From assembly GCF_009177065.1 (NCBI RefSeq), contig NZ_WEZF01000026.1, positions 46,212 through 110,211 of the forward strand: a DNA stretch of 64,000 nucleotides, given 5' to 3'. This stretch comes from Tautonia marina (GTDB lineage: Bacteria; Planctomycetota; Planctomycetia; Isosphaerales; Isosphaeraceae). A program made the position numbers and the translations under genes. Position 1 is the first letter of the stretch. Every line of letters begins with the position of its first letter. The notes below the pieces were generated by a model. It saw only the letters and a list, made by a program, of their open reading frames with translations, was not told where the DNA came from and searched no databases. Shown piece by piece: positions 2,858 to 19,182 of the stretch.

Positions 2858-4207
2858 TCACCGAGTCTCCTGGGCGCCGGCCTCGTCGTCGATCTGGGAA
2901 TGGGCCTGGGCTTCTTCCATCAACAGCAAGGCCAGCGCCTGCTCCAGCTCGGCCGGCTTGAACCCGAAGGGGCCCCGGCCACTCTTGAAGGCGACCAGGC
3001 CCTCGCGATCGATCAGGTAGAGTCGCGCAGGCATCCCACTATAGAGCGTTCCCACCGGGTCCTCGATCGAGTCGACAACCATCGGCATCCCCAGGTCGAG
3101 CGTCCGCTGGCAGAGGCGGGCCACCTCCACCCGGCCGGCGTCGTCGGTCGGCTGGGGAAGGGTGTAGCCCTGTCGGAAATTGTCGAACATATGCCAACCG
3201 TCCGTCGGGTGTGCCTCTCGGACGTAGACAAGCAGGAAACCGGCCCGGTCCCGGTATCGGCGGAAAAGCTTCTCGATGTTCCCGGCCTGGCTCCGGAACG
3301 GGCCGCACGTGAAGTTACCAAAGATCAAGACGACCGGCTTGTCCAGCCGTTCGCGGTAGGCCGAGAGCGTCACGTCGCGGTCCCCATCCACCGAACCCAG
3401 GGTGAAGTCGGGCGCGACATCGCCGATGCCAGGTCCAGGCCAGAGCGACCCGATTTCCTGCGTGAACAGACCACGAATCAGGGTCGACTTGCTCGGCCCC
3501 TCCGGTGAAGGCGGCAGCCCTTCTCCCTTGATCCCCGGTTCCATCATCAAGCGATTGAACGTCCCCTGATTGAAAACGCCCTTCAGCTCATCTCGCGACA
3601 GGAAGCCGAGATCCCCCCGGTCCAGCCGCTCGAACAGCGCGAGGAACTCGGCCCGACCCACCTTCCCGTTCCCATCGGTATCGGCCAGATAAAACAGGGC
3701 CGTACCCGGCCCCCCGGCCAGCGCATGTTCCGACCAATCAAAGTCATCTCTGGTAATCAGCCCGTCGCCGGTTCGGTCCACGGCGATGAAGTCATCAGCC
3801 GTGCCGGGCCACTCCTCTTGAGAAACAAATCCGTCGTTGTTCATGTCAAGGCGGCTGCGGACTTCCGTCCAGGAGAATCGAGAGCCCCCCGTAGGGCGTC
3901 GGAACCAGCCGTCGGACGCGTTGAGCTGACTTCCCCGGAGAATGTCTGTAAGCATTAACATCCATTCTGGTCGTTGCTCGGAAGGCGTCTGCTCCAGCCG
4001 CTTCGCCAGCCAATTGCCGAGCCTTCCCGCCAGTTCGGAATCCCAGAAGGCCCTGGCGGCCGGAGACATCACCTTGGCTGTCGAACCGTCGCCGCTCCCC
4101 TCCTGAGCCTGGGCCAGACCAGTGAGCGTAACCACCAAGAGTCCCACCGAGAGGACCGCGAGCCGCCGACTCCTTGAAGGAAATTCGATCGGAAAACGCT
4201 TGTTCAT
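2858..4207 (-). CDS. EF-hand protein with iodothyronine-deiodinase-like thioredoxin domain
   Basis: 449 residues with an N-terminal signal segment (about residues 14-35). Three EF-hand loops follow: DMNNDGFVSQEE near 121, DRTGDGLITRDD near 144 and DTDGNGKVGRAE near 176. The C-terminal half starts GDVAPDFTLGSVDG like a redoxin, then shows IFGNFTCGPF (Cys301) and VYVREAHPTDGW. These two motifs match the deiodinase family, where animal enzymes read NFGSCTUPSF and EEAHxSDGW. Cysteine replaces selenocysteine here (codon TGC). Bacterial deiodinase-like proteins are probably thiol oxidoreductases or peroxiredoxin relatives; true deiodination is unproven. Likely exported and calcium-binding. The gene stands alone between a terminator and the ClC gene. 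Confidence 0.85.
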   Translation of the reverse strand: MNKRFPIEFPSRSRRLAVLSVGLLVVTLTGLAQAQEGSGDGSTAKVMSPAARAFWDSELAGRLGNWLAKRLEQTPSEQRPEWMLMLTDILRGSQLNASDGWFRRPTGGSRFSWTEVRSRLDMNNDGFVSQEEWPGTADDFIAVDRTGDGLITRDDFDWSEHALAGGPGTALFYLADTDGNGKVGRAEFLALFERLDRGDLGFLSRDELKGVFNQGTFNRLMMEPGIKGEGLPPSPEGPSKSTLIRGLFTQEIGSLWPGPGIGDVAPDFTLGSVDGDRDVTLSAYRERLDKPVVLIFGNFTCGPFRSQAGNIEKLFRRYRDRAGFLLVYVREAHPTDGWHMFDNFRQGYTLPQPTDDAGRVEVARLCQRTLDLGMPMVVDSIEDPVGTLYSGMPARLYLIDREGLVAFKSGRGPFGFKPAELEQALALLLMEEAQAHSQIDDEAGAQETR

Positions 4208-17571: not shown

Positions 17572-18657
17572 TCAAGTCGTGACCGACCGCGCCGAATCGA
17601 ATTGTCCGAGCCGGATCGAAATTCCCTCGATCCGGGGCACCACCCGACCGATCGTGGCCGCGGCCAGCGTCTCTCGTTGCTTTAATTGCTCAAGGAAGGC
17701 ATCGAGATGGTCGGGAGCGATCGCCACGAGCAGGCCGCCCGAGGTCTGGGCGTCGAACGCAAATTCGACGCGCTTCGGATTGGCCCCCGAGGCGATGTCG
17801 AGCCGACCGGCCAGAAAAGCCCGATTGGTCGCGCTGGCTCTGGTGAAATTCCTGGGAACGGCCAGAGGTTCGGCCCCATCAATGAGCGGAAGGGCATTGA
17901 GATCCAGCTCGATCGTGATGCCCGAGCCGTCGGCCATCTCGGCGGCATGCCCGGCGAGGCCGAAGCCGGTCACGTCGGTCAGGGCGTGGACGCCGCCGGA
18001 GGCCCGGCCGGCCTCGCTTGCGTCGGCGTTCAGGCGAATCATGCTTGTGATGGCCCGGTCGAGGACCTCGGCGGGACAGCGACCGTTTTTGGCCGCGGTG
18101 GTGACGAAGCCGGTTCCCAGCGGCTTGGTCAAGACCAGCAGGTCGCCCGGCCTCGCCCCGGCGTTGGTCAAGATGTCGTCGGGATGGACGAGGCCGGTGA
18201 CACTCAGGCCGAACTTGATCTCGGAATCTCGGACCGTATGACCGCCGACGACCGAGGCTCCGGCCAGCGCGACCCGTTCACCGGCTCCGGCGATGATCTG
18301 ACCCAGCACCTCCAGGGGCAGGCGATCATCGGGAAAGGCGGCGATGTTCAGGACCGTGAGCGGCCTGCCGTTCATCGCGTAGACATCGGAGAGGGCATTC
18401 GCCGCGGCAATCTGACCGAAGATGTAGGGGTCGTCGACCAGCGGGGGAAAGAAATCGACGGTTTGTACCAGAGCCAGATCGGGCGCAATGCGATACACGC
18501 CCGCGTCGTCGCATGTTTCGGTGGCGACGAGCAGGTCGGCGGGTCGGGGTGGTTGTGGCAAGCCGCGCAGAACCTGCGCGATCCCCTCGGGGGGAAGTTT
18601 GCCTGCTCACCCAGCGCAGTTGGCGTAGTCGGTCAGGCGTTTCTGTCGTCCGAACAT
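17572..18657 (-). CDS. selD: selenide, water dikinase with in-frame UGA (selenocysteine)
   Basis: SelD makes selenophosphate from selenide and ATP. From ATG 18657 the gene reads MFGRQKRLTDYANCAG, then UGA (18607-18609), then AGKLPPEGIAQVLRGL and on without a break. The UGA falls at codon 17, where E. coli SelD has catalytic Cys17, and Lys20 is kept. Other landmarks are VQTVDFFPPLVDDPYIFGQIAAAN, GHTVRDSEIKFGLSVTG, LTDVTGFGLAGHAAEM and FDAQTSGGLLV. The full length, 361 residues, fits the family. A caller that treats UGA as stop would start at TTG 18561 and lose the active site. A hairpin suited to SECIS function follows the UGA. The gene shares its strand with the SelW-like gene upstream. Confidence 0.93.
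18565..18579 (-). promoter_or_regulatory. candidate bacterial SECIS hairpin in selD
   Basis: On the mRNA, GCGCAG-GUU-CUGCGC forms a perfect six-pair stem starting 28 nt after the UGA. Its apex, GCAGGUUCUGC, resembles the GCAGGUCUGC apex of the E. coli fdhF SECIS. SelB needs such a hairpin just downstream of the selenocysteine codon. Confidence 0.65.
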
Positions 18658-18749
18658 GCTGAACAGGGGCTCCGGGGCCGGTCGATTCGGCGCTGAGGGG
18701 AAGAAAGTCGTCCGATCGGCCGAACCCTGCTTCGCTTCACTTTGGGGTC

Positions 18750-18936
18750 ATTCAGGAACAACGACCAAGGTTCTCGGGTGGCCGCGGTTGCTGTGCAATC
18801 GGGGCGGTGTCGCCGCAAGAGGGCTGCGGGTCATCCTGGCGCCTCGGTCGGGCCTCTCGTCGCTGCGCGACCCCGGTTGGCGAGCAACCGGGGCTACCCG
18901 AGAACCTCACTCGAAACGCGGACGTTGTTCCTGAAT
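18750..18936. repeat. large imperfect palindrome between selD and the SelW-like gene
   Basis: ATTCAGGAACAACG at 18750-18763 recurs inverted at 18923-18936. Further in, AGGTTCTCGGGT and CGGTTGCT also recur inverted, and a self-contained hairpin with 9-base arms (CCCCGGTTG/CAACCGGGG) sits at 18871-18893. The centre lies close to GGCGCC near 18841. It resembles a non-coding repeat or MITE-like element without a coding frame. Confidence 0.6.
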
Positions 18937-18942
18937 GTCTCC

Positions 18943-19182
18943 TTAGCGGTGGAGCAGGCGGCCGACTTCCTCGACCAACGCGGTTTCGTCCGGGAAGTGA
19001 CCGGTCTTGAGCTTTGAGTACACGATCGTCGTGCCCACGGTCAGCTCAAAACAGCCCCCTTTCGAGGGGATCAGGGTCATGCGGCCGATTGATCGCTTGA
19101 ATCGAGGCAGCAGCAGGGCCGTCAGACTGACGGCCTGGGGCTCGTAATTTCAAAGAGCGCAATATTCGAGTGTGATGTCCAC
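18943..19182 (-). CDS. SelW/Rdx-family selenoprotein with in-frame UGA
   Basis: From GTG 19182 the frame reads VDITLEYCAL, then UGA (19150-19152), then NYEPQAVSLTALLLPRF, later GGCFELTVGTTIVYSKLKTG and HFPDETALVEEV, ending at TAA 18943 after 79 codons. This is the whole Rdx/SelW/SelT/SelH thioredoxin-like fold: beta strand, a CxxU redox motif replacing CxxC, then FEV..G..I.SK...G.FP. Length matches the family. GTG is the only standard start after the preceding in-frame stop, and no strong ribosome site is visible. A hairpin at 19117-19135 follows the UGA. Rdx proteins are small thiol/selenol oxidoreductases. The AI-2E-type gene ends 62 bases upstream and selD follows downstream on the same strand. 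Confidence 0.9.
19114..19137 (-). promoter_or_regulatory. candidate bacterial SECIS hairpin in the SelW-like gene
   Basis: After the UGA the mRNA forms GGCCGUC-AGUCU-GACGGCC, seven perfect pairs around a five-base loop with GU 23-24 nt from the UGA. Outer CAG/CUG pairing can extend the stem past a bulged C. The spacing and GU loop fit bacterial SECIS elements. Confidence 0.65.

Follow-up and report, generated by a model that had tools for sequence, protein, structure and literature searches.

A SelW/Rdx-like gene with a predicted selenocysteine codon upstream of selD in Tautonia marina

Introduction

On the minus strand of the 64,000-nt stretch of Tautonia marina DNA analyzed here (the window), a short reading frame resembling the SelW/Rdx family contains an in-frame UGA, and a little further downstream lies selD (Table 1). 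The locus raises the question of whether this UGA ends translation or is read as an amino acid and, in the latter case, as which one. Our analysis leads us to regard rdx, with near certainty, as a SelW/Rdx gene with an internal UGA that SelA, SelB and tRNA-Sec are predicted to translate into selenocysteine (Sec), yielding a small, likely redox-active CxxU protein. The protein family is already known. The evidence for this reading comes from the frame itself, from the codon found at the site in relatives, from the RNA hairpin behind it and from the Sec-insertion genes of the genome.

Table 1. Positions in the window of rdx, selD and the associated elements
Feature	Position	Strand	Remarks
rdx (SelW-like) CDS	18943..19182	-	79 aa, GTG start at 19182, TAA stop, CALU at residues 8-11
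In-frame UGA of rdx, predicted selenocysteine 11	19150..19152	-	TGA conserved at the site in relatives
Putative SECIS hairpin of rdx, GGCCGUCA-GUC-UGACGGCC	19117..19135	-	loop 22 nt after UGA, 8 bp, -13.2 kcal/mol
199-bp imperfect palindromic repeat between rdx and selD	18744..18942	.	inverted arms, dispersed repeat family
selD (selenophosphate synthetase)	17572..18657	-	361 aa, ATG start at 18657, in-frame UGA
In-frame UGA of selD, predicted Sec17 (NCAGUAGK)	18607..18609	-	codon 17, 1 TGA inside
Putative SECIS hairpin of selD, UCGCGCAG-GUU-CUGCGCGG	18563..18581	-	loop 33 nt after UGA, 8 bp, -11.4 kcal/mol

Reading frame and family assignment of rdx

Translation of positions 19182-18943 of the minus strand with TGA read as U gave 79 residues followed by TAA, with U as residue 11. 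The first-pass annotation of this DNA had proposed a complete 79-residue Rdx-family protein with a CALU motif running through this UGA, which proved exact to the base. The product matched the Pfam family Rdx (PF10262) with an E-value of 1.8e-18 and 66.9 bits (cut-off 22.6) and the NCBIfam model TIGR02174 (CXXU_selWTH) with a score of 57.4 (cut-off 34.2); against NF041051, an equivalog model from Campylobacter, it scored 67.4, which is under the cut-off of 88. When the whole genome (7.07 Mb, 97.76% complete) was searched for Rdx, the rdx locus, with one TGA inside, was the sole match at E <= 0.001. A plasmid search returned 17 records, all of them below 60% identity and none a close match.

The rdx genes of T. 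marina and of the same-genus genome G041 displayed a dN/dS of 0.0 over the 10 codons upstream of the UGA and of 0.108 downstream. In every computable comparison with the T. marina gene the ratio was below 1 on both sides, three values being undefined. The codons just upstream of the UGA, encoding LEYCA, were conserved in the alignment of relatives (A1), for which TGA was read as C; a trailing C in some of its rows represents a terminal TGA stop, and the first row, which ends in TAA, is unaffected. The frame around the UGA looks to be under purifying selection on both sides, and its continuation across the UGA is not due to chance, as the first-pass annotation had already stated.

The rdx product was modeled with AlphaFold2 from 16 sequences with U read as Cys, and the model reached a pLDDT of 94.4, with a strand at E3-8 and a helix at H14-28. 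Cys8 closes strand 1 in this model and residue 11 precedes helix 1, thus the CxxU motif is placed between these two elements. The top match in Foldseek was 2fa8 (TM 0.86-0.88, 36% identity). A redox function of Rdx is likely by analogy with the other members of its family.

Conservation of the UGA in relatives

A total of 45 genomes of the Isosphaeraceae, that of T. marina included, were searched, and 19 of them contained Rdx. Among the 20 matches, 18 were intact and carried a single TGA in the CxxU position, one (L019) was a CxxC paralogue with Cys at the Sec site and one was decayed. All of the 18 genomes with UGA-containing Rdx belonged to the 30 genomes with a selA over the cut-off, and none of the 15 others had any Rdx match (Fisher p 5e-5, not corrected for relatedness). 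In this count G022, whose selA is in two pieces below the cut-off, was taken as being without selA, and incompleteness affects several of the genomes that lack Rdx or selA (e.g., G036, 64%; G044, 74%).

Across the phylum, Rdx was detected in 143 of the 392 genomes sampled, about a third, and among the 150 matches listed 139 had one TGA and 11 had none. The codon at the site was TGA in 79 of 80 named relatives and TGC in the remaining one (L134); since these were the best 80 of 349, they lean to close kin. To control for this, a further 30 loci were chosen from the phylum search by score, of which 26 had TGA and four Cys. Over 98 loci, duplicates included, 97 TGA and one TGC were found. Every codon read in relatives was therefore TGA or Cys, these readings leaving out seven further stop-free phylum matches listed; the first-pass annotation had pointed to any other codon at this site as evidence against its proposal.

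Some of the loci deserve mention for themselves. L134, the lone TGC among the 80 named loci, has kept much of the hairpin sequence, and its persistence suggests a recent Sec-to-Cys switch. L158 (positions 3022-3033) is an Rdx gene with two in-frame TGAs, resulting in UxxU in place of CxxU; it was found in one MAG, and because of this it may be an error. L165 and L177, loci titled Acidobacteria and Blastocatellia, display the same UGA and hairpin core as the planctomycetes, hinting at transfer, shared descent or a binning error.

SECIS hairpins behind the two UGAs

The legend of Fig 2 in PMC13188914 gives limits for a bSECIS element: a loop of 3-9 nt, a stem of 4-16 bp, a spacing of 16-37 nt, an MFE <= -7.5 and a G in the first two loop positions. 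The hairpins of rdx and selD both lie within these limits as given in that legend. As a control, all 1719 TGAs on both strands of the window were analyzed; 155 passed -7.5 kcal/mol, and 25 of the 1719, the rdx UGA among them, were followed by a hairpin matching that of rdx in strength. A hairpin alone therefore proves little and becomes convincing through comparison only. An Rfam search at a lax threshold yielded no SECIS-type RNA and only a chance miRNA match.

For this comparison, 85 distinct TGA sequences were obtained from the 98 loci, duplicates and L134 (TGC) being left out; L019 (Cys) and the decayed L036 are outside the 98. Over the eight pairs of the rdx hairpin, 85.4% of the cells were paired, the covariation score was 0.141 and 10 cells showed double changes, and each of these three values was reached by none of 500 shuffles. 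Slid versions of the hairpin were 19.7-42.5% paired, with scores of up to 0.067. These slid controls were not all worse: slide -2 gave 11 double-change cells where the hairpin gave 10, four pairs with double changes were likewise seen at slides +1 and +3, and slide +3 equalled the hairpin in further pair types (12). The rdx relatives had a consensus fold of five pairs, not eight, and the bSECIS energy limit was passed by 45 of the 85 distinct sequences under a scorer that takes an uninterrupted stem and allows no bulges.

The selD hairpin was compared over 21 distinct Sec-type sequences. It was 97.6% paired, scored 0.283 and had 10 double-change cells, values that none of 500 shuffles attained; its slid versions were 23.2-63.7% paired with scores up to 0.089. 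For the number of pairs changed on both sides, 16 of 500 shuffles did as well, and for further pair types 248 of 500, the latter count being no better than in shuffles. Four Cys-type selD genes recovered by motif search paired at 5, 5, 5 and 6 of the same eight positions. In L038-L046 and L065-L067 the motif search gave no selD match, and L065 was read separately.

Codon constraint over the loop

Codons were counted in 77 of the 80 named loci; the other three (L123, L158 and L167), missed by the motif, all have TGA at the site. The Ser located over the rdx loop (UGA+8) was encoded by AGT in 73 of 75 sequences, by AGC in two and by TCN in none, and the Ser of YSK (UGA+45) by TCN in 77 of 77. 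The Val ahead of the loop Ser was GTC in 71 of 75, and the Ala codon was GCC in 67 of 76. In the 26 further TGA loci of the phylum the loop codon was GGT (14), AGT (7), AGC (4) or AGG (1), and all five core pairs formed in 21 of these 26 loci versus none of the four Cys copies.

Comparative sequence data thus support the putative SECIS hairpin of rdx by compensatory changes as well as by strong codon constraint, and the latter is the clearest sign for it. From these codon and pairing counts, it would seem to be the loop of the RNA that determines which amino acid is encoded over it. The rdx set could serve as natural material on how an RNA element in a coding region dictates amino acids.

Selenocysteine machinery and selD

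The T. marina genome encodes selA (C3:315690-317057; 521.9 bits, cut-off 267.9), which adjoins selB (C3:317135-319027; 367.2 bits, cut-off 242.25), and a tRNA-Sec with anticodon TCA is located on C4 (66.5 bits versus a gathering score of 47). Together with selD, all of selA, selB and selC are present over their cut-offs. The first-pass annotation had taken rdx and selD together as a sign of active Sec use, a claim that hinged on selB and the tRNA-Sec; the gene set supports it, and Sec insertion itself stays predicted.

The selD gene downstream of rdx holds an in-frame UGA of its own, which was absent from the first-pass annotation. Its product scored 356.6 bits with the NCBIfam selD model TIGR00476 (cut-off 125) and contains the Pfam domains AIRS and AIRS_C. 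Within the family, 19 rdx loci bear the UGA if the decayed copy is included, and in 15 of them selD lay within 1.5 kb downstream; 13 of these selD genes carried TGA and two Cys.

The spacer between the two genes contains in T. marina the 199-bp element, which has 83 matches in the genome (strands counted apart), with one further full-length copy of 88% identity at C30:2230-2428. It is absent from the rdx-selD spacer of the same-genus G041. Judged from these copies, the element is a dispersed, MITE-like repeat.

A decayed copy in the genus

The rdx of G042 (L036), a genome of the same genus, is decayed. TGA is still at the site, the partner Cys is lost and the GU of the loop is changed. Out of 33 residues that are invariant in 16 intact sequences, eight are lost, the CxxU cysteine included. 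Compared with L029, the nearest of three relatives compared, 29 non-synonymous and 10 synonymous codon differences were counted. G042 retains selA and a TGA-bearing selD, and because L036 decays while these are kept, rdx looks dispensable; in this genome the Rdx protein appears to be on its way out while selA and the UGA-bearing selD stay.

Other selenoprotein candidates

Rdx was considered as the sole reason to keep Sec and this was ruled out, as 12 of the 30 selA genomes of the family are without an intact UGA-containing Rdx, and T. marina itself also has a ResA-like UxxC candidate. The latter gene (L181:2164-3591 on C1, with TGA at L181:2368-2370) encodes a ResA/TlpA-like, likely exported protein with the motif ASW-UGA-AGC (UxxC), and a hairpin with the loop GGUCU is found 23 nt after the UGA (-9.2 kcal/mol). 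The protein is a likely third selenoprotein of this genome.

A Sec-containing formate dehydrogenase was also considered for T. marina and rejected, the three PF00384 matches having no TGA in the matched stretches; one of them spans profile positions 282-352 only. In other genomes of the family (e.g., G018, G020 and G002) molybdopterin oxidoreductases with one TGA were identified among the matches listed, where they were of two kinds, one covering the full-length profile and the other profile positions 46-302. These are likely further selenoproteins.

Proposed mechanism

We propose that SelB carrying Sec-tRNA would bind the rdx hairpin through its GUC loop, 22 nt after the UGA, and that Sec would be inserted at codon 11. 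According to the AlphaFold2 prediction, Rdx would adopt a thioredoxin-like fold in which strand 1 ends with Cys8 and Sec11 sits in the loop ahead of helix 1. A reversible selenenylsulfide would form between these two residues, and electrons would be exchanged with a thiol partner. SelD, predicted to be a Sec protein too, would provide the selenophosphate needed for Sec in both SelD itself and Rdx.

A more far-reaching proposal is that rdx and selD form a selenium-gated unit, in which the UGA of each gene would act as a stop when Sec is short and rdx would serve as a selenium gauge for selD, with the hairpin rather than the protein fixing the loop amino acid (Ser AGU or Gly GGU) throughout the phylum. 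We consider this proposal doubtful.

Alternative readings of the UGA

Among the database relatives of Rdx, 84 of 88 begin past the UGA, and in 51 of these 84 the start is residue 20, whose TTG/CTG codon is inside the hairpin; of those that extend to the site, three have W there and one has C. One entry (P0008) derives from the T. marina contig itself and is a 45-aa remnant of Rdx; the first-pass annotation was slightly off in stating that no gene is left when the UGA is seen as a stop. Taken at face value, the predominance of such short entries and the decay of the copy in G042 favor a true stop, with rdx being either a pseudogene or a shorter protein that starts downstream. This is very unlikely given the near-universal TGA at the site in the named loci, with Cys in the single exception, the dN/dS values of less than 1 both before and after the UGA, the conserved LEYCA codons upstream of it and the covariation of the rdx hairpin. 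With the Sec reading preferred, the short entries indicate that gene callers cut a family that occurs in roughly one third of the phylum genomes sampled, and the likely active site is lost in the process, which is a lesson for annotation.

The three entries with W (P0004, P0005 and P0011) could also mean decoding of the UGA to a different amino acid without Sec, as Trp or by near-cognate suppression, although they are most likely the product of gene calling with code 4. UGA ends selD itself at 17574-17572, homologues with a solved structure (2fa8) have Cys at the aligned position and the genome has selA, selB and tRNA-Sec, which leaves a non-Sec amino acid at this codon with hardly any probability. 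A sequencing or assembly error from TGC to TGA, for which nothing was found even though a single base change would suffice in one genome, is refuted by independent genomes, the same TGA being present in 18 genomes of the family and across the phylum, and its probability is negligible.

Comparison with known systems

The novelty of the locus implied by the first-pass annotation is not supported: bacterial SelW-like CxxU selenoproteins have been published, as has the use of Sec by planctomycetes (PMC1088965, PMC2398784, PMC4807772). SelW-like CxxU selenoproteins were reported in 2005 as the largest family in the Sargasso Sea set, with 48 genes (PMC1088965), and another count gave 427 SelW-like proteins and 357 SelD (PMC2398784). 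Rdx is listed with CxxU in PMC9312934, and 38 bacterial SelD selenoproteins are listed in PMC1794560. Full Sec-insertion gene sets were described in 2016 for P1, P2, Gemmata obscuriglobus and Isosphaera pallida (PMC4807772); the main text of that paper contains neither "SelW" nor "Rdx", and its supplementary candidate list may name the family. Neither "planctomycet" nor "SelW" occurs in the main texts of PMC5029168 and PMC12013277. In the open-licence literature searched, no paper on an Isosphaeraceae Rdx or on the rdx-selD pair was found.

The rdx gene resembles the published bacterial SelW-like selenoproteins in its family scores, its CxxU motif, its small thioredoxin-like product and the SECIS predicted inside the coding region. 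It differs from these systems in that rdx of the family studied is mostly located directly upstream of selD, which usually bears a UGA. The SelW-related Atu0228 of Agrobacterium (PDB 2fa8) shares the fold of the rdx model; however, it has CTQC, with Cys where rdx has the UGA. The selD described here is like other Sec-containing SelD proteins in that its predicted Sec17 lies in CAGU and a SECIS hairpin comes after it. T. marina, with its full Sec-insertion gene set, is in line with the planctomycete Sec users reported in PMC4807772.
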